Shown here piece after piece: positions 1-10,410 of a stretch of DNA of 42,183 nt. A program made the position numbers and the translations under genes. The first letter of the stretch is position 1. Every line of letters begins with the position of its first letter. The notes beneath the pieces were generated by a model. The model was not told where the DNA came from, did no database searches, and saw only the letters and a list, made by a program, of their open reading frames with translations. The stretch comes from Candidatus Synechococcus spongiarum SP3 (GTDB taxonomy: Bacteria > Cyanobacteriota > Cyanobacteriia > PCC-6307 > Cyanobiaceae), in NCBI GenBank assembly GCA_001007665.1, contig JXQG01000009.1, forward strand, positions 1-42,183, written 5' to 3'.

Positions 1-288
1 GGTGGCTCCGGCAACAACGGGGGCGCCATTCTGGGGGGATTTCTCGTCTGGTTCTTGTGGGTGCAGGCGGAAGTTGGCGGCCCATGGCTGATGACCCTGC
101 TCACCTCCGGGCTCCAGGAGGACGCTCCTCTGCGTCAACACCTGCTCAGCGTAACGCCCCACATGCGCCAATTGGTGATGGGGTGCATCCTGCTGGTGGT
201 CTTGCGTCTGAGCCCCCGGGGACTACTGCCGGAGCAAAGCGGCAAACACAACCTTGCCCAGCGGCGAATCGGATCGGAGCGCTCTTAA
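1..288 (+). CDS. LivM-type branched-chain amino acid ABC transporter permease, C-terminal end
   Basis: The reading frame is open from the first base and stops with TAA at 286-288, so only about 95 C-terminal residues are visible. The start reads GGSGNNGGAILGG, which fits the conserved region of LivH/LivM permeases. It is followed by hydrophobic segments and the usual ending LSPRGLLPEQ. The family forms the membrane channel of ABC importers for branched-chain amino acids or related solutes; which solute cannot be told here. A decayed insertion element begins 3 bases after the stop, so the original downstream neighbour is hidden. The family call is fairly safe and the substrate is unknown. Confidence 0.75.
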   Translation, partial: GGSGNNGGAILGGFLVWFLWVQAEVGGPWLMTLLTSGLQEDAPLRQHLLSVTPHMRQLVMGCILLVVLRLSPRGLLPEQSGKHNLAQRRIGSERS

Positions 289-290
289 GC

Positions 291-998
291 CCTGTGGACA
301 AATGGGCGTTACCTTGCTGCAAGAAGGGTTGCCACGAGGTTCCAGTGAGCGGCATAGCTGCTGGCGGCTTGGTCATAACCGGTGACAATGTTGACAATGT
401 ACCGGTCTCCTTGATTCTGGCAAAGGAATTCTCGATCCGATGGCGCCGCTTGTCGGCTTCCCTGTCGGAGGAGCGCCGTGCTTGGCGGTTCGCCTTGGGC
501 GGGATGCCCCGCTGTGGCGCTACGCACCGTCAACTCCCTGAGCAAGTCATCCCTGTCGAACGCCTTGTCAGCCAGCAGCGCATCAAAAGGCAGGTTGCTG
601 ATCCGTGATGCCACCCCTTTGCTCTCGTGCCTCTGTCCTGGCAGCAGGAGGAAGCGCACCAGATTGCCCAGGGCGTCCACCATCACCACGATCTTCCTTG
701 CCAGCCTGCCAAGGGAACGGCCCATGCACTGGCGCTGAATCCCCCTCTTGCTCCGGCGGCTTTCTGGTGAACCGGGCAATGGCGCCGTCGATGAGCGCGT
801 ACTCCAGAGAACAGCTTCCAGAAGCAGACGGTTGTCCCCTTGTGGGACCGGCACGATCCGTAGCCTTGCCGAAAAGCAGCGGTGCAATGGTCTGCCAGAG
901 CCGATCCGGGGCCACAAAGCGGTGCTCGCCCATGGCGACCTCCATTCCCTCAGCGTTGAAACACCCCAACCTCCAGGGCAATCCCATTTGTCCACAGG
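291..998 (-). mobile_element. Decayed IS5-like insertion sequence with 16-bp terminal inverted repeats
   Basis: A perfect 16-bp repeat, CCTGTGGACAAATGGG, stands at 291-306 and in inverted form at 983-998, marking a 708-bp element. The minus strand carries recognisable transposase pieces in two frames. They are an N-terminal piece (APDRLWQTIAPLLFGKA), then DNRLLLEAVLW and VDALGNLVRFLLLPGQRH, and a C-terminal piece ending in AALLAAR-like sequence (ATLLAAR). IS5-family elements of this kind are usually longer, and the stretch between EAVLW and the VDALGN block looks deleted. The element lies between the permease stop and pds. No convincing target duplication was found. Confidence 0.8.
309..970 (-). 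pseudogene. IS5-family transposase, frameshifted and internally deleted
   Basis: Homology to an IS5-type DDE transposase is split between two minus-strand frames. The start (GEHRFVAPDRLWQTIAPLLFG) lies in one frame near 890-945. The central LLADKAFD block, which would carry a catalytic aspartate, and the C-terminal GYDQAASSYAAHWNLVATLLAAR-like end lie in another frame, ending at 309. At least one frameshift and a central deletion separate them, so no functional enzyme is expected. It could be moved only by a transposase supplied in trans acting on the intact inverted repeats. Confidence 0.75.
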
Positions 999-2464: not shown

Positions 2465-3442
2465 ATGAGCTCTTTGCAACCTGTCCGTCCCCACTGGCTG
2501 GCCCGTCACCATCCGCCCATCTTGTGGCGGGGCGCCGCGGTGGACTGTCCCAGCCTGGAAGAGGGCTACGAAGCCTGCCGTGTGGAAACCCGGCGCTGGG
2601 CCAAAACCTACTACCTGGGCAGCCTGTTGATGCCCCCGAAGAAGCGCCGCGCCATCTGGGCCATCTATGTGTGGTGCCGCCGCACGGACGAACTGGTGGA
2701 CGCTCCCGATGCGGCCACCATGGACCCCACCCAACTCCATCAGCGTCTCAACCAGTGGGAGGAGCGGACCCGACGGCTGTTTGCCGGAGAGGTACACGAT
2801 GCCCAGGACATGGCCCTCTGGGACACCCTGCAGCGCTATCCCCAGAAGATCGAGCCTTACCTGGAGATGATCGCCGGGCAACGGATGGACATCAACCTGA
2901 GGCGCTACCGAACGTTTGAGGAACTTAAGCTTTACTGCTATCGGGTGGCGGGCACCGTGGGCCTGATGAGCCAAGCGGTGATGGGGTTGGATTCGGCATT
3001 TTATTCCGCCCCCTGGAGCCGATGCCCCGATCCCAGCACCTGCGCCGTGGCCTTGGGCATCGCCAGCCAACTCACCAACATTTTACGGGATGTGGGGGAA
3101 GATCGGGAACGGGGGCGCATCTACCTTCCTTATGAGGACCTGACCCGGTTCAGCTACACGGAAGCGGAACTGATGGATGGTGTCGTCAATGACCGCTGGC
3201 GTGACCTGATGAAGTTCCAAGTGCAGCGTGCTCGGGAGTGGTTTCGTCGCTCGGAGTCAGGGATTCGTTGGCTCTGCCAAGATGCCCGCTGGCCCGTGTG
3301 GACCTCCCTGCAACTTTACCGAGACATTCTCGGGGTCATTGAAGACAACGGCTACGATGTCTTCTCCCGCAGGGCTTACGTACCCGGTCTGAGAAAGCTG
3401 CTGAGCCTGCCCATCTCCTTTACCCTCGCCCAGTCCCGCTAA
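2465..3442 (+). CDS. crtB: Phytoene synthase
   Basis: This 325-residue protein of the squalene/phytoene synthase family condenses two geranylgeranyl diphosphates into phytoene. Both aspartate-rich motifs are present: RRTDELVD at about residues 72-79 and DVGEDRERGRIYLP near residue 210. The QRMDINL and YCYRVAGTVGLM segments also match the family. It follows pds, whose enzyme uses its product. The chosen ATG gives an N-terminal extension of about 25 residues before the conserved core, so a later start is possible. Its stop overlaps the convergent RNA-binding protein gene by 4 bases. Confidence 0.95.
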   Translation: MSSLQPVRPHWLARHHPPILWRGAAVDCPSLEEGYEACRVETRRWAKTYYLGSLLMPPKKRRAIWAIYVWCRRTDELVDAPDAATMDPTQLHQRLNQWEERTRRLFAGEVHDAQDMALWDTLQRYPQKIEPYLEMIAGQRMDINLRRYRTFEELKLYCYRVAGTVGLMSQAVMGLDSAFYSAPWSRCPDPSTCAVALGIASQLTNILRDVGEDRERGRIYLPYEDLTRFSYTEAELMDGVVNDRWRDLMKFQVQRAREWFRRSESGIRWLCQDARWPVWTSLQLYRDILGVIEDNGYDVFSRRAYVPGLRKLLSLPISFTLAQSR

Positions 3443-3891
3443 ACGGCTGTCTTCTGTTGGTCCAGCAGCAGCTTGAGCTTGGAGAGTTCCTGGCTCCAGC
3501 GGGGATCGGGAGCATCCGCCTCGGCAAGTTCACGGTGAACGACTTTGTCGGCCATCTTGCTGGCGCGGGGGGGCGCCTGGTCGTTGCGGCGATTACTGGC
3601 GTTGCGGTTGCTGTCCTTGCGCTCGGAGCGCTCCACACGCAGAGCTTGACCGGCAAACTCCTTGCCGTTGAACTGGGCGATAATGGTCTCGGCCAGCCGC
3701 TCGTCACTGACGCTGATGAAGCCGAAGCCACGGCACTCGCCACTCTCCCGGTCGGTGACCGGTTTGAAGCGAATGCTTTGATCAACAGCAGCCTTGAACT
3801 GGCCCTCAAGCTCCTGGAGATCAGCGTCCCGGGGCACGTTGCCCACATAGATGCGAATGCCTTGCTGATTATTGTTGGAACGGTTGCTCAT
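3439..3891 (-). CDS. RRM-type RNA-binding protein (cyanobacterial Rbp family)
   Basis: The protein has about 150 residues with one RNA-recognition motif near the N-terminus. RNP2 is IYVGNV (about residues 13-18) and RNP1 is CRGFGFISV (about 53-61). The tail is polar and basic, rich in Arg, Asn and Glu, and ends LLLDQQKTAV. The start MSNRSNNNQQG was chosen because it directly precedes the domain; the open frame upstream is long but carries no family similarity. Cyanobacterial Rbp proteins bind RNA and are often cold-responsive or involved in mRNA localisation; the role here is inferred from family only. It is convergent with crtB and shares 4 bases. Confidence 0.9.
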   Translation of the reverse strand: MSNRSNNNQQGIRIYVGNVPRDADLQELEGQFKAAVDQSIRFKPVTDRESGECRGFGFISVSDERLAETIIAQFNGKEFAGQALRVERSERKDSNRNASNRRNDQAPPRASKMADKVVHRELAEADAPDPRWSQELSKLKLLLDQQKTAV

Positions 3892-4015: not shown

Positions 4016-5314
4016 TCAAGGGGAAACCGGATTCCTCCGACTGGGGATCCGCCGGGAAGAGGCTTCCTGTTGCAGCCATTGTCGGGCCCTGTCCAAGATG
4101 GACGCCTCATCATGAGCGACCAGGCGTCCGAAGGCATTCTCGCGCCGCAGAAAGGTCATCAATGCTCCCAACCTGGGACCGGATGATAAAGACAAGGCCT
4201 CCTGCAAACGGTCACCACTGAGGGGACAGCGAGGATGACAGAGGGCGTCAGCGGGATCCCGCCAACGGCGCAGCCACACCCTGGCGTTGTTCAGGCTCAA
4301 CTGGTTCCGGGCCAGCAGCGCCAGCAGGAGCGCCGGGAGGTCCTTTGCCAGGTCCAGGTGCAGCTGCAGTTGCTGGTCCTCCGCCAGCCCCGTCGTTCCT
4401 TCAGCCCACACCTGACGCCAGTGGTTCAACCGCTTCCACTGCCGTTGCCGGCGCCTGCTGCAGCCCAGGCGCTCCCCTACGGATTGCGCTCCCAAGAGCC
4501 CCGAGAGCCGGGCCAACGCCAACTGGCGCACCAAAGCCTCCCCCTCCAGGCCCAAAGCCATGGCCAGACGGCGGCTCAGACAGGCAAGTCCTGGCCATGG
4601 CCGCGCCATGGGAAGCCAGGCCCGCAACACAGTGCCCGTCTCAAGCAGCCAGTGGTGAGCCTGGGGCGCCCTGCAGAGTCGCTCCAGTTCCGCCAGGATC
4701 CGCTCGGACGCCACCATGTCCAGCTTCGGCGCCTCCTGCCGAAGCCATTGACGGGTGCGCTCTTCAATGGTGCATCCCAGTTCAGCGGCCAGGCGATAGG
4801 CCCGCAGCACCCGCAGGGGATCAGCGGCCAGGATGGCGGCAGCCACACAGCGCAGCCGCCGCTGGGCCAGGTCTTGCAGACCGCCACAGGGATCATGGAG
4901 CGTGCGCCGCCCCAGGTGGTACGCCATGGCATTGAGAGAAAAGTCCCGCCGCTCCAGGTCCGCCTCCATGGTGGCGCCGTCCCAGGCAGCCACGTCCACC
5001 GTCCATGGACCATGGACCAGGCGCCCCATGTCCCGCACCTGGTCCAACACCACCACCGTGCCCCCCCAGCGGCTGGCCAACTGCCGACACAACTGGACGG
5101 CCCCCTGGGGAACGGTCAGATCTACGTCGGGATGGTCCCTGAGGCGCCCCAGCAAAGCGTCACGAACAGCACCCCCCACCAGGACGGTGTTCCCAGGCAG
5201 CGCAGCCCAGGGGAAGGGGGGAGACAACCTGGCTACGGCGGTGGTCAGCAGGGCCGCAGCGTCCGCCAAAGCCGGCCCAGCCTGCACGTCACCTGTTGTG
5301 GCTTCACTGCCCAT
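4016..5314 (-). CDS. tRNA nucleotidyltransferase / poly(A) polymerase family protein (CCA-adding type)
   Basis: This protein of about 432 residues belongs to the class II nucleotidyltransferases. The N-terminal head has VGGAVRDALLG (motif A) and the metal-binding DVDLTV (DxD). It is followed by ERRDFSLNAMAY and DPCGGLQDL, then AADPLRVLRAYRLAAELG and a helical body. The family adds or repairs the CCA end of tRNAs, although cyanobacteria may split A and CC addition between paralogues, so exact specificity is open. The ATG at 5314 was chosen because the second copy of this region (7039-7126) keeps that ATG but not the one two codons upstream. Its 5' end lies in a duplicated segment next to a foreign insert. 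Confidence 0.88.
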   Translation of the reverse strand: MGSEATTGDVQAGPALADAAALLTTAVARLSPPFPWAALPGNTVLVGGAVRDALLGRLRDHPDVDLTVPQGAVQLCRQLASRWGGTVVVLDQVRDMGRLVHGPWTVDVAAWDGATMEADLERRDFSLNAMAYHLGRRTLHDPCGGLQDLAQRRLRCVAAAILAADPLRVLRAYRLAAELGCTIEERTRQWLRQEAPKLDMVASERILAELERLCRAPQAHHWLLETGTVLRAWLPMARPWPGLACLSRRLAMALGLEGEALVRQLALARLSGLLGAQSVGERLGCSRRRQRQWKRLNHWRQVWAEGTTGLAEDQQLQLHLDLAKDLPALLLALLARNQLSLNNARVWLRRWRDPADALCHPRCPLSGDRLQEALSLSSGPRLGALMTFLRRENAFGRLVAHDEASILDRARQWLQQEASSRRIPSRRNPVSP

Positions 5315-5331
5315 GCGCATCTGTGTTGACT
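5244..5331. repeat. Direct repeat, copy 1: divergent start region of the nucleotidyltransferase and ycf34
   Basis: This 88-bp stretch matches 7039-7126 at about 70 of 88 positions with no gaps; the last 40 bases match at 38. Here the minus-strand reading is the live start of the nucleotidyltransferase (MGSEATTGDVQ). The plus-strand reading is a dead ycf34 start (MRICVDS) that runs straight into methyltransferase sequence. Together with copy 2 it brackets the inserted segment. Confidence 0.85.
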
Positions 5332-6299
5332 CGATCCCAGTCGTTAATGTTGAAGGACTGGAAGGCTGGTATGCCGAACACGTGGCAGCGTAGTCAAAGT
5401 TCGCACACCCAGCCACGACGTTGTGGTTCTGGAACACCGAGATTGGTTGGGCAACCACCCATCCCCTTCTGGTGCGGGAAGGGTGGGAGTACGTCCAGAC
5501 AATTCTGTGGGACAAAGGCGTTGGCCATGTCGCGGGCAACGTGAACGGGGACACGATTCGGCGGTTGCCGACGGTTACGGAAATCTGTGTCTTCTATCGG
5601 CGACGGCTTCTGCTGAAGACCTCGGACGGCAGGGTGCCCCTCTGCCGCTGGCTGCGCACGGAATGGCGGCGGACCGGACTGCCCCTGTATCGCGCCAACG
5701 AGGCATGTGGGGTCAGGAACGCTGCAACCCGCAAGTATCTCACCCAGGACTGGCTCTGGTACTTCCCACCCGTGGAGATGATGGCTCGGCTGGTTGCCTT
5801 TGCCAACGTCCACGGTGACCCGGCAGGGCGTCCCTATTACGCAATTGACGGAAAGCAGCCTGTCACCAAAGCTGAATGGGCAGGGCTGCGCCACCCATGG
5901 CGCCACGAGCACGGCCTGACCAACGTCTGGTCCCATCCGCCCCTCAACGGTGCAGAGCGCTATCGGGGCGACGGCCGTCGCGTCGCTCCCCGAGTGCATA
6001 ACCCGGGGAAGAACGCAGCGGCGCACCTGAACCAGAAACCTCTTGAGTTCATGCGCCGCATCATCAAGGCGGCCTCAAACGAGGGCGACACCATCTGGGA
6101 ACCGTTCGGTGGGCTATGCACTGCATCGGTTGCGGCTATTGAGACCGGTCGGAATGCCTTTGCCGCCGAACCCGATCCCTACTTCTCGGCACTGGCAAGA
6201 CAGCGATTGACCGGCCGGTTCACCAGTGACCATGAGGTTTCAAGAACCACTGACCGTGTCAGCGATTTGTCTGTTCAACACAAACCTTCCCGGACGTGA
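5332..6299 (+). pseudogene. Site-specific DNA methyltransferase, 5'-truncated and interrupted by an amber stop
   Basis: One frame reads VNVEGLEGWYAEHVAA, a TAG at 5391-5393, then SKFAHPATTLWFWNTEIGW and on to a stop at 6299. Downstream are the target-region features NEACGVRNAATRKYLTQDW and the C-terminal HLNQKPLEFMRRIIKAA with WEPFGGLCTASVAAIE, a DPFxGxGT-like SAM-binding motif I. This order (catalytic motif before motif I) is that of beta-class amino-methyltransferases. The N-terminus with the (D/S)PPY catalytic motif is missing, because homology begins immediately after the direct repeat. A TTG at 5421 could start a shorter 292-residue product, but it would lack the catalytic motif. No partner nuclease is seen nearby. 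Confidence 0.8.
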
Positions 6300-6369
6300 G
6301 ATTGTTCGCGCATGGCGGGATGGGACAGATTATTATCGACTCAACTCAATCCCCCCTCCCCTTTCCCGC

Positions 6370-6579
6370 ATGTTCGACCCTTTTGAACAGCTCACTCTTG
6401 AGAACCTAAACAGTGACATGTACGACTCTATAAAACAGTTCTTGTATGGCCTCAACAATAATGAGCTGATTGTTTTTTCTCTTCTGATGTTTTTTCTCCT
6501 CCCAGTGGGCATGGCGGGTTTGGTGTGGTTCCTGTTCGGGTGGGGTGTCCGACGCCGTGGCCAGGAACCTAATTGGTGA
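6370..6579 (+). CDS. Small single-pass membrane protein, hypothetical
   Basis: This 69-residue ORF starts MFDPFEQLTLENLNSDMYD. It has a strongly hydrophobic stretch of about 25 residues (VFSLLMFFLLPVGMAGLVWFLFG) and a basic end (GVRRRGQEPNW). The region is more AT-rich than its surroundings, in keeping with foreign origin. After its TGA stop the same frame stays open for another 39 residues with a second hydrophobic segment (see 6604-6699), so it may be the front of a broken two-helix protein. The frame also runs upstream to 6226, but that part overlaps the methyltransferase and shows no features. No family was recognised. Confidence 0.4.
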   Translation: MFDPFEQLTLENLNSDMYDSIKQFLYGLNNNELIVFSLLMFFLLPVGMAGLVWFLFGWGVRRRGQEPNW

Positions 6580-6603
6580 CGGCGGGGCTTGGCGACCCTG
6601 GCG

Positions 6604-6699
6604 ATGGTTCTCAGTTGCTTCTGGAATCCGTGGGGGGTGATGTCGGTCATTGCAGGGATCAGTGTCGGGTTGGCATTGTTTCCTTTTGAGACTGACTAA
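6604..6699 (+). CDS. Very short hydrophobic ORF, possibly the second half of a split membrane protein
   Basis: An ATG at 6604 opens a 31-residue frame with a hydrophobic centre (MSVIAGISVGLALFPF). It is in the same frame as the 6370-6579 ORF, separated only by the TGA at 6577-6579 and eight sense codons. Either it is an independent micro-peptide or the two were one protein with two membrane helices. Nothing outside hydrophobicity and frame supports it. Confidence 0.2.
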   Translation: MVLSCFWNPWGVMSVIAGISVGLALFPFETD

Positions 6700-7038
6700 G
6701 CTGGTCTATCACTGCCACCCCCCACGGATGCAGTGTGGCCTTCCTTGGGAAAGGTCTGGACGGATGCTCTTACCGGCCCTTGGGGGCTCGCTCGGGGTAA
6801 TGGCAATCAATAGATACGGTTAGGGGGCCAAACAGCGGACTCAACCAGAACCAGCGGCAGCGGTGGTGGCTCTGGTTCTTGGCTACGGATTCACAGAAGT
6901 CTCCCATCATTATCGTCAGGGTCCCTCGGTCCAGGGCAGCGGGTGAGCAGATACCGACTCCTGACAGTCCGCCTGCGCACTGATCACGATTCTCGCTCGC
7001 CTAAAATCTGATCTGAGACAGGTGGGACTGAACAACGA
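6700..7038. other. Non-coding right part of the insert
   Basis: About 340 bases without a convincing ORF. The only structure noticed is an 8-bp inverted repeat AGAACCAG (6847-6854) / CTGGTTCT (6872-6879) with a 17-base GC-rich loop and no T-run. The segment ends where copy 2 of the direct repeat begins. Confidence 0.5.
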
Positions 7039-7126
7039 GTCAGTTGTGCCGCAGCGTCCGCCAGGACCAGGTCACAATGGACCTTGCCTGTTGTGGTTTC
7101 ACTGCCCATGTGCATCTGTGTTGACT
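7039..7126. repeat. Direct repeat, copy 2: true ycf34 start plus a dead nucleotidyltransferase start
   Basis: This is the partner of 5244-5331 at a constant offset of 1795 bases. Here the plus strand carries the live ycf34 start (MCICVDC). The minus strand would read MGSETTTGKVHCDLVLADAA, a recognisable but abandoned nucleotidyltransferase N-terminus that loses similarity upstream of 7039. Several differences between the copies keep the minus-strand residues similar, so both copies probably descend from coding versions. Confidence 0.85.
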
Positions 7127-7356
7127 GCCACTGGGTGGACCGTTGCTCCACGTATCACGCCGTAGAAACCCGGCACGGCGTCAAGCATCTGACGCCAACA
7201 CCGGACTTTGCGCCCCTCCAGCCTCGCATCAACGTCCATTTACGGTCCCGAGGGTTGGTCACCACGGTGGAGTGGGACGTGGTGGCCTGCAACAGCTTTT
7301 TGAGGGACCTGGGCCGTTGGCAGCGTTTGCGGCCCCGGGAGGCCGTACCTACGTGA
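7108..7356 (+). CDS. ycf34: Ycf34-family protein
   Basis: This 82-residue protein begins MCICVDCHWVDRC, the cysteine-rich start typical of Ycf34, and ends CNSFLRDLGRWQRLRPREAVPT. The family occurs in cyanobacteria and red-lineage plastids; the Synechocystis protein has been reported to bind an iron-sulfur cluster and to affect photosynthesis under stress. The start was chosen because the cysteine motif begins at this ATG. Two bases separate its stop from tsaB, suggesting translational coupling. The start overlaps, on the other strand, a relic of the nucleotidyltransferase start. Confidence 0.88.
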   Translation: MCICVDCHWVDRCSTYHAVETRHGVKHLTPTPDFAPLQPRINVHLRSRGLVTTVEWDVVACNSFLRDLGRWQRLRPREAVPT

Positions 7357-7358
7357 GC

Positions 7359-8054
7359 ATGGCCCCTGTCATGGATGCGCAGCCGATGGAGCCGGACCTG
7401 GCGCTGGCGATCCATACCTCCAGCCCTGATCTGGCCATGGCGTTGGCGCCGTTCCCCTGGTCGGGGGACGCACCCGTGTCCGTTCTCTGCAAGGCAACGG
7501 GGAAGGGTCTTGCCAACGTGTTGCACCAGGAACTGCTGCGTCTCCTACCGGCTTCCCAATGGCGCCGGCTGGCGGCTCTGGCTGTGGCTACAGGACCCGG
7601 GGGCTTCACGGGAACCCGTCTGGGGGTAGTCCTGGCCCGAACCATGGCCCAGAACTTGCAAATCCCCCTGTTGGGCTGTGGCAGTTTTGTCCTCATGGCA
7701 CGGCGCCTGGCGCAACGTCTACTCCAGGAACATCCGGAAGGTTGCGCCGTTCAGTTGGAGCAGCCGTTGCGGAAGCGTGGGTGGATCCGGGGTCGTTACC
7801 GGATTACAGCCCATGGCGTCGTGGAGGAGCGCCAAGCGCCCCAGCTCCTCACAACCGCGATTCCCCTTGGAGAGGCCGCGCCATGGCTTCGTCACCCTGC
7901 CGTAGTGGAGCCCGCCGCCGATGCGGTGGAGTTGCTACGGGTACTGATGGAGCGTCACGCCCTGGGTGATCCTGGGCATTGGCAAGGGGTGCTGCCGTTG
8001 TATCCAGCTGCCGCGGCGGAGCGCCCATGGGAGACTGAGTCCACGTGTCGTTAA
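7359..8054 (+). CDS. tsaB: tRNA threonylcarbamoyladenosine biosynthesis protein TsaB
   Basis: This protein of about 231 residues belongs to the TsaB/YeaZ family of the ASKHA fold. Supporting motifs are LALAIHTSSPDLAMAL at the N-terminus and AVATGPGGFTGTRLGVVLARTMAQ near residues 80-103, which is the GPGSFTGxRxG signature. TsaB scaffolds TsaD and TsaE in making t6A37 on ANN-decoding tRNAs. The first ATG, 2 bases after the ycf34 stop, was used, but ATGs at 7371 and 7386 in the same frame are closer to the usual family start. Its stop lies against a transposase scrap. Confidence 0.88.
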   Translation: MAPVMDAQPMEPDLALAIHTSSPDLAMALAPFPWSGDAPVSVLCKATGKGLANVLHQELLRLLPASQWRRLAALAVATGPGGFTGTRLGVVLARTMAQNLQIPLLGCGSFVLMARRLAQRLLQEHPEGCAVQLEQPLRKRGWIRGRYRITAHGVVEERQAPQLLTTAIPLGEAAPWLRHPAVVEPAADAVELLRVLMERHALGDPGHWQGVLPLYPAAAAERPWETESTCR

Positions 8055-8249: not shown

Positions 8250-9881
8250 ATGGTGTCCTCCTCTGCCCTGGCACAGCCGCCCGCAGCGGCGGATCCGAAT
8301 GGTGACTTGCGACGCGATCTGGTGCGCCACCCCACCATCGTGATCCTGGACTTCGGCTCCCAGTACGCCGAACTCATTGCCCGACGCATCCGCGAGACGG
8401 AGGTGTTCTCCGTGGTGCTGGGCCATGGGATCAGCGCTACGGAGCTGCGGCAGCTCCAGCCGTGCGGGCTCGTTCTCAGCGGTGGTCCCAGCTCCACCTA
8501 CGGGAAAGACGCGCCCCAGTGTGACCCCGACCTCTGGGGCCTGGGCATCCCGGTGTTGGGGGTGTGCTACGGGATGCAATTGATGGTGCAACAACTGGGT
8601 GGGCAGGTGGAGCCGTCCCGGCGGAGGGAATACGGCCGTGCCCGATTGTGGGTGGACGATCCCACGGATCTGCTCACCAACGTGGCCCATGGCTCCACCA
8701 TGTGGATGAGCCATGGGGATGGGGTCAGCCGCCTTCCGGAGGGGTTCACCTGTCTGGCCCACACGGACAACACGCCCCTGGCGGCCGTCGCGGATGCCCA
8801 ACGCCGTTTTTACGGGGTTCAGTTTCATCCGGAAGTGATGCACTCCACCTGCGGCATGGAGTTGATCCGCAATTTTGTCTTCCATATTTGCGGGTGCAGC
8901 CCCAATTGGAACACTGCGGCGTTTGCGGAGGAGGCCATTGCCGACGTGCGGACCATGGTGGGGGAGCGCCGTGTGCTGCTGGCCCTCTCGGGTGGCGTGG
9001 ATTCCTCTACCCTGGCCTTTCTCCTCCACAAGGCCATCGGCCCACAGCTCACCTGTGTCTTCATTGATCAGGGCTTCATGCGCAAGGGCGAGACGGAGTT
9101 TCTGATGAATTTTTTCCGGGAACGGTTTCATATTGATGTCCACCACATCCAGGCCCAAGACCGTTTCCTCAAACGGCTGAAGGGGGTGACGGATCCGGAA
9201 GAGAAACGCAAAGCCATTGGCAATGAGTTCATTCGTGTCTTTGAACAGGAAAGCAAACGTCTTGGCCCTTTTGATTATCTGGCCCAAGGGACTTTATATC
9301 CCGATGTCATTGAATCCGCCGGCACCAACGTGGATCCCAAGACAGGGAAACGTGTGGCGGTGAAGATCAAGAGCCATCACAACGTGGGTGGCCTGCCGGA
9401 AGACTTGTGTTTTCAGTTGGTGGAGCCGCTACGGCGTTTATTCAAGGACGAGGTGCGCAAGCTTGGCCGCAGCCTGGGGCTGCCGGAGGACATTGTGCAG
9501 CGCCATCCCTTCCCGGGACCCGGCCTGGCCATTCGCATCCTGGGGGAGGTGACGGAAGACAGGCTGGAGATGCTACGGGATGCGGACATGATTCTCCGGG
9601 AAGAGATCAAGGCTGCCGGCCTCTACCACGAAATCTGGCAGGCGCTGGCTGTACTGCTGCCGGTGCAATCCGTGGGGGTGATGGGGGATCAGCGCACCTA
9701 TGCCTATCCCATCGTGGTGCGCTGCGTCACCAGTCAGGACGGCATGACTGCCGACTGGTCCCGTCTTCCCCATGGGGTGCTGGAGCGCATCTCCAATCGT
9801 ATTGTCAACGAGGTGAAAGGGATCAATCGCGTTGTGTACGACATTACGAGCAAGCCGCCCGGCACCATTGAGTGGGAATAG
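8250..9881 (+). CDS. guaA: GMP synthase (glutamine-hydrolysing)
   Basis: This protein of about 543 residues has two domains. The class I glutamine amidotransferase comes first, with [19 protein letters not shown], the nucleophile in [11 protein letters not shown], and the FHPEV histidine. Then comes the ATP-pyrophosphatase with the P-loop [17 protein letters not shown], and the GMP synthase C-terminal domain ending in [13 protein letters not shown]. It converts XMP, ATP and glutamine to GMP. The frame is open back to 8166, but the ATG at 8250 fits the family N-terminus. Transposase fragments lie on both sides (8056-8127 and 10151-10410), so the gene stands as an isolated island. Confidence 0.97.
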
Positions 9882-10150
9882 TGTCGGCGATCAAAGCCCG
9901 ATACGATGCGCTGCGGGCCGCAGTAGCCGATACCACTCGATGAACGCCAACGAACTTGGGGGATCTTCTCCTGGACGTGCATGTTTGTGGAGCAGCAGCA
10001 GAACGTGCTGGCCATGGTGGGCCATCCGGATTTGGAGGACTGCCTGGGAGATGGATGACCCGACTGAGCACCGGGCAGTGCTAGAGGATCGGGACTACTA
10101 CACCCGGGAGAACATGTTCCGGGTTGCCTGCCAACGCCCGCTGGGAATCA
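9882..10150 (+). pseudogene. Decayed small coding region downstream of guaA
   Basis: Short protein-like stretches sit in alternating frames. FVEQQQNVLAMVGHPDLEDCLGD from 9984 runs into a stop. It is continued, after a frame change near 10050, by MDDPTEHRAVLEDRDYYTRE and NMFRVACQRP. The second half looks like real protein sequence, and the two would join by a single-base shift. The original family was not recognised. It breaks off where the IS5 transposase fragment begins. Confidence 0.35.
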
Positions 10151-10410
10151 GCCTATGGATGGGGACAAGGGTACGACAGCAACAAGATCCGTACCCTGCT
10201 GCTGGAGCAAGGCATCCCATCCTGTATCCCACCCAGGCGGAACCGCAGCAAGAGAGTCCCTTCCAGCAAGAGGCTGTACAAGATGCGCCATACGGTTGAG
10301 AACCTGTTGGCCAGGCTCAAGGCTGGCGACCCATGACAACTCGCTATGACCACTGTGCCCCTGTCTTCCTCTCTGCCGTCCTCCTGGGGGCCACCGTCAT
10401 CTTCTGGTGA
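10151..10410 (+). pseudogene. IS5-family (IS427-like) transposase, C-terminal fragment with a frameshift
   Basis: The frame from 10151 reads GQGYDSNKIRTLLLEQG, IPPRRNRSKR and LYKMRHTVENLLARLK, then meets a stop at 10336. The next frame continues the family sequence as GWRPMTTRYDHCAPVFLSAV and LLGATVIFW with TGA at 10408-10410. The glutamate of HTVENLLARLK is the last residue of the DDE triad. The first two-thirds of the gene is absent and a one-base shift splits the rest. Confidence 0.8.

Follow-up and report, generated by a model that had tools for sequence, protein, structure and literature searches.

The window analyzed here, a stretch of 42,183 nucleotides (contig C96) from a cyanobacterial genome bin of 2.13 Mb, very probably records an old insertion of a restriction-modification (RM) gene pair into the overlapping divergent starts of two host genes, with duplication of the target and later decay of the inserted genes. 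Two copies of an 88-bp block now bracket what is left of the pair. Judging from sequence, the locus is a fresh instance of a known style of RM insertion with long target duplication, whose testable features were found here. For comparison, we used nine other species-level genomes of the same genus, eight of which contained the locus or part of it; all compared genomes are metagenome bins. This one genus shows an empty allele, a fuller repeat, decayed forms, apparent remnants of amplification, and transfer between strains, which makes it a clean natural record.

Duplicated target block at overlapping gene starts

A live gene of the tRNA-nucleotidyltransferase/poly(A)-polymerase family (hereafter nucleotidyltransferase) was identified on the minus strand at positions 4016-5320 by matches to Pfam PolyA_pol (1.2e-16) and PolyA_pol_RNAbd, and is kept in relatives. 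The live copy of ycf34 (Pfam Ycf34, 2.1e-34) is located on the plus strand at 7108-7356. On the 3' side of ycf34, a plus-strand tsaB-like open reading frame (ORF) at 7143-8054 showed a TsaD-family match and conserved gene order, and its true start is probably located just past the ycf34 stop at 7356.

The sequence-only reading had reported an 88-bp block occurring twice, at 5244-5331 and 7039-7126, with 70 of 88 bases identical. The repeat search returned the same coordinates (80% identity), and self-BLAST gave 79.5% over 88 bp with an E value of 4.8e-17, which rules out a chance origin of the pair. Copy 1 (5244-5331; repeat search, alignment, and self-BLAST) contains the live 5' end of the nucleotidyltransferase, with a minus-strand ATG at 5320-5318 or 5314-5312, and a truncated ycf34-like start whose ATG at 5313 stays open for only 26 codons. 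Copy 2 (7039-7126; repeat search, alignment, and identity table) has the reverse arrangement, with the real ycf34 start (ATG 7108) and a dead 5' remnant of the nucleotidyltransferase that leads nowhere. This division into one live and one dead start per copy, also proposed from the sequence, was borne out by the Pfam matches and ORF lengths.

Two genomes of the same genus, G008 and G002, contained both starts within one intact block without interruption, as had been predicted for relatives. In most of the same-family genera examined and in several other cyanobacterial families, ycf34 has the nucleotidyltransferase immediately upstream on the other strand; in the same-family genera, the two starts abut or overlap, as judged from where the protein matches begin. 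By these comparisons, the uninterrupted nucleotidyltransferase-ycf34 junction is the insertion target. With the two starts overlapping, one of them would be lost in an insertion that lacked duplication. The empty single-block alleles of G008 and G002 support the earlier proposal that the insertion split a gene pair sharing its starts and rebuilt both by duplication. We also looked for insert-free relatives already possessing two blocks, which would contradict this proposal, and none were seen among the compared genomes.

Additionally, other neighbors of ycf34 were observed in the genus. In G006 (L030), ycf34 keeps approximately 100 bp of a nucleotidyltransferase 5' remnant next to an M32 carboxypeptidase gene, and no nucleotidyltransferase match was found in the G006 genome. 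In G009 (L033:893-1735), ycf34 is preceded by the end of a Type ISP restriction enzyme (Type_ISP_C, 1.9e-63), a restriction system of another kind at this site.

Decayed genes of the insert in the window

Insert DNA in common with relatives begins at 5332, directly after copy 1, with a remnant of the short left leader of the insert (5332-5348, plus strand) whose junction after copy 1 is common to G004, G005, and G009. The leader is followed by a DNA methyltransferase pseudogene (N6_N4_Mtase; 5349-6233, plus strand), which corresponds, based on Pfam and alignment, to residues 44-338 of the 343 amino acids in relatives. The first 43 or so residues are missing, and an in-frame TAG at 5391-5393 leaves an ORF at 5421-6299. 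The earlier claim that methyltransferase homology starts at the very base after copy 1 therefore holds for the insert DNA of relatives, from 5332, but not for coding homology, which starts at about 5349 with residue 44.

Downstream, a restriction-endonuclease-like remnant of 28 residues (6254-6337, plus strand) was aligned at the protein level with residues 90-117 of an intact 311-aa relative. Most of the endonuclease gene has been replaced by DNA at 6338-6987 that matched nothing in the other nine genomes of the genus. The only match found in the genus for these middle 650 bp was 34 bp long (window 6950-6983, 88%); it lies in the reverse orientation on contig C105 of the window's own genome and may mark the end of a small repeat element. 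A probable 3' remnant of the endonuclease (6988-7038, plus strand) abuts copy 2 and matched homologous places in G003 (51 bp, 76%) and G009 (48 bp, 77%). With the methyltransferase truncated and interrupted by TAG and the endonuclease in fragments, the RM system is not functional in the window's genome, and both enzyme genes are dead. On both sides of the region (window 146-990 and 9740-10350), broken frames resembling transposase fragments were noticed by eye.

Restriction-modification unit in related genomes

The insert was found at the same place and in the same orientation in G001, G003, G004, G005, and G009, with the methyltransferase adjoining the nucleotidyltransferase. RM genes fill the segment between the repeats, as a methyltransferase and a restriction endonuclease (REase)-like gene in G003-G005 and G009 and as a relic in the window. 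The methyltransferase of relatives matched Pfam N6_N4_Mtase (PF01555, 1.7e-12) and PADLOC MTase_II (1.6e-17, intact G005 copy). The second ORF, after the methyltransferase, is intact at 311-322 aa in metagenome-assembled genomes (MAGs) of other phyla (L101 and L102; gammaproteobacterial and Bryobacterales). Pfam and PDB searches with this ORF gave no match, and it is described here as a putative, restriction-endonuclease-like gene on the basis of a weak PADLOC REase_II match (1.6e-5), its place beside the methyltransferase, and a PD...ELK motif recognized by eye.

Homology with the gammaproteobacterial relatives (80-81% DNA and 84-86% aa identity) starts 3-5 bp before the GTG start of the methyltransferase, and the right repeat in G003 starts approximately 12 bp past the endonuclease stop. 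These results indicate that the unit is essentially the two genes. In G003-G005, about 65-190 bp on the left and 12-16 bp on the right are all that the insert contains besides the two enzyme genes. Among the genus relatives, G004 and G005 alone retain an open methyltransferase frame, and stops, frameshifts, or deletions interrupt all endonuclease copies. Across the genus as a whole, the RM unit is dead or close to it.

The methyltransferases of L100, L101, and L102 (Gammaproteobacteria and Bryobacterales MAGs) share 81-86% aa identity with the cyanobacterial one, and some of these MAGs carry sample labels also found on cyanobacterial bins. This indicates recent transfer across phyla, probably among sponge symbionts. 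The RM unit of approximately 2 kb has moved among bacteria of different phyla, with methyltransferase identity reaching 86% in gammaproteobacterial MAGs. In addition, a methyltransferase gene of the Mycobacterium phages Xavia and Tortellini showed 67% DNA identity to part of the insert.

Length of the duplication and its remnants

Bracketing repeats of 169-174 bp with 87% identity were identified in G003, and shorter lengths are kept in G004 (113 bp) and the window (88 bp). The left side of G003 keeps 33-34 bp of ycf34 and approximately 120 bp more ahead of the leader of the insert. The left junction after copy 1, which is the same in the window, G004, G005, and G009, is shorter than that of G003; by this comparison, the 88 bp of the window are the trimmed remnant of a longer duplication. 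Divergence between copies 1 and 2 ranges from 2% (G005) to 28% (G004). G001 retains a recognizable right copy of only about 35-50 bp, and the last part of its left copy is not recognizable; the common origin of its insertion therefore rests on place, orientation, and divergence. Comparison of the right repeat next to ycf34 covers the genomes other than G005 and G009, in which ycf34 is on another contig.

Pieces of a second RM copy were found beside the first in two genomes. In G005, a second copy of the block is followed by 271 bp of 98%-identical insert DNA running into an aconitase-family (leuC-like) gene, and in G004, a 97-bp methyltransferase fragment (94%) is located between the endonuclease and copy 2. 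These pieces are probably what is left of tandem copies, which recombination between direct repeats would be expected to produce, and the repeats probably permitted tandem amplification. Multiplication of an RM gene complex between direct repeats has been described (Sadykov et al. 2003, as cited in PMC3874152), and the likeness of G005 and G004 to that description is drawn from the remnants. A further block copy, resembling the empty-site type, was observed in G004 between crtB, which it closely follows, and a large surface-protein-like gene (L032:5315-5400, contig C10), and contig C79 of the same genome contains a 79-bp crtB end.

Partial copies of the adjacent host gene were also detected on either side of relatives of the RM unit in other hosts. 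In a Thermoanaerobaculia MAG (L106), the unit is flanked by partial copies of a thymidine-phosphorylase-like gene at 2885-3035 and 6190-6333 (151 bp, 74%), and in an Acidimicrobiales MAG (L123) by partial copies of a diaminopimelate-decarboxylase-like gene at 3711-3772 and 5415-5475 (62 bp, 84%). These arrangements suggest independent long target duplications. Two other candidates were rejected: the repeats in L102 are two integrase-like genes, and the repeat in L115 also spans another gene. In several Acidimicrobiia MAGs (L109, L118, and L126), the RM unit is flanked by a perfect direct repeat of 25-27 bp, which lies approximately 162 bp ahead of the methyltransferase and recurs downstream.

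Age of the insertion and exchange between strains

The deepest relative is G001, whose genes show 73-80% DNA identity and whose insert matches those of the other genomes at 76-78%. Since the divergence of the G001 insert is close to its genome-level divergence, the insertion most likely predates the split of the sampled species. Alternatively, the empty site of G002 and G008 might be the unbroken ancestral state, and the insert might have spread later among species by homologous recombination. Homologous exchange at the locus is real, and G002 and G008 group together here while G008 groups with G003 elsewhere, so that emptiness would be one event shared by exchange. However, this course seems rather unlikely to us, as the G001 insert speaks for presence before the split, and G002 and G008 are nested inside insert-bearing lineages in the nucleotidyltransferase tree (support values of 99/79/83).

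The 20% divergence between the two window copies had been taken as a sign that one copy came from another strain. Under such an explanation, the insert and at least one flanking block would have been imported by homologous recombination, and copies 1 and 2 would differ in strain origin. A comparable import was seen in G004, in which the upstream 1.6 kb is 84-95% identical to G002/G008, whereas the last 230 bp or so with copy 1 (5100-5331) is nearest to G005/G009, and the ycf34 start is again nearest to G005. In the block tree, copy 1 of G004 groups with G005/G009 with 98% support, and G008 is also a mosaic of G003-like and G002-like stretches. Cassettes of repeat and insert do pass between strains, as G004 shows.

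In the window, however, both copies are of one type: each is 82-85% identical to the empty relatives G008/G002 and 80% to the other, but only 67-76% identical to the copies of G005/G009. No switch of nearest relative marking a crossover was detected across the left flank, insert, and right flank. The identity table and the tree of the 88-bp block, which is weakly resolved with many supports below 60, do not separate the window copies by strain. Moreover, with an insertion as old as the G001 insert (76-78%) indicates, age alone suffices to explain the divergence. A foreign-strain origin of one window copy is therefore improbable, and we retain the old insertion, with both copies aging in place.

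Comparison with known systems

RM insertion with long target duplication is a known insertion style, described by the Kobayashi group (Nobusato et al. 2000; Furuta et al. 2010, PMC2853133, as described in papers that cite it; reviewed by Mruk and Kobayashi 2013, PMC3874152; also PMC3031569). As in the cases outlined in those papers, RM genes alone were inserted here with no linked mobility gene, the duplication is of the order of 100 bp (88 bp in the window and 169-174 bp in G003), an empty single-copy allele exists in relatives (G008 and G002), and the locus is associated with rearrangements. It differs from the insertions described there in having hit two overlapping start codons, so that the duplication was needed to keep both genes. 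In addition, the insertion is old and decayed and occurs in most of a genus. The sequence-only reading had recognized the insertion and the duplication, and these stand; it went astray on the foreign-strain copy and missed the RM nature of the insert, its deadness in the window, and the prior description of this insertion style.

A rebuilt gene start also has another known source. Integrative elements directed at gene 5' ends rebuild the start of their target, and the start rebuilt at one end of the present insert resembles their effect, which could point to a site-specific integrative element or transposon as the carrier of the genes. In contrast to such elements, the insert showed neither a recombinase nor an attachment core or circular form. 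No transposase or integrase was seen among the insert ORFs of the window and relatives, with part of the small ORFs profile-scanned, and neither inverted repeats at the insert nor a tRNA at the locus was found. Furthermore, the insert in G003-G005 is limited to the two enzyme genes and short flanks, and relatives of the unit in other hosts adjoin unrelated genes. We consider an integrase or transposon origin very improbable and rejected it. The use of metagenome bins throughout leaves only the slightest chance of an assembly or binning artefact, since the same arrangement recurs in independently assembled bins from different studies, with differing repeat lengths and decay.

Proposed history of the locus

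Under the favored reading, an RM insertion with target duplication, a Type II RM pair of approximately 2 kb, with the methyltransferase first, the endonuclease second, and no mobility gene of its own, would have entered the overlapping divergent starts. The event, which we infer to have been single and ancestral, would have taken place before the sampled species of the genus split and duplicated a target of approximately 170 bp, which left the nucleotidyltransferase start in the left copy and, in the right copy, the ycf34 start together with the region ahead of it. The RM system then decayed in every lineage, and deletions in the window have cut the bracketing repeat to 88 bp. In G002 and G008, recombination between the repeats probably excised the insert precisely and restored the overlap exactly.

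The locus shows how two genes whose starts overlap can survive an insertion. We tentatively propose that the long duplication lets an RM unit enter a site that would otherwise be lethal or harmful to disrupt, namely the shared start codons and promoters of two housekeeping genes, and that the repeats could later allow scarless, recombinase-free removal, as in G002 and G008. If true, this would amount to a reversible, gene-sparing coming and going of an RM unit without a recombinase of its own.

With respect to ycf34 expression, copy 2 holds at least 69 bp upstream of ycf34. The dead nucleotidyltransferase 5' end in this copy might carry the putative ycf34 promoter region, which we offer as a suggestion only. 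A hexamer, CA(C/G)AAT, located approximately 35 bp before the ycf34 ATG fits this suggestion, as it is absent from window copy 1 and present in copy 2 and the empty sites.
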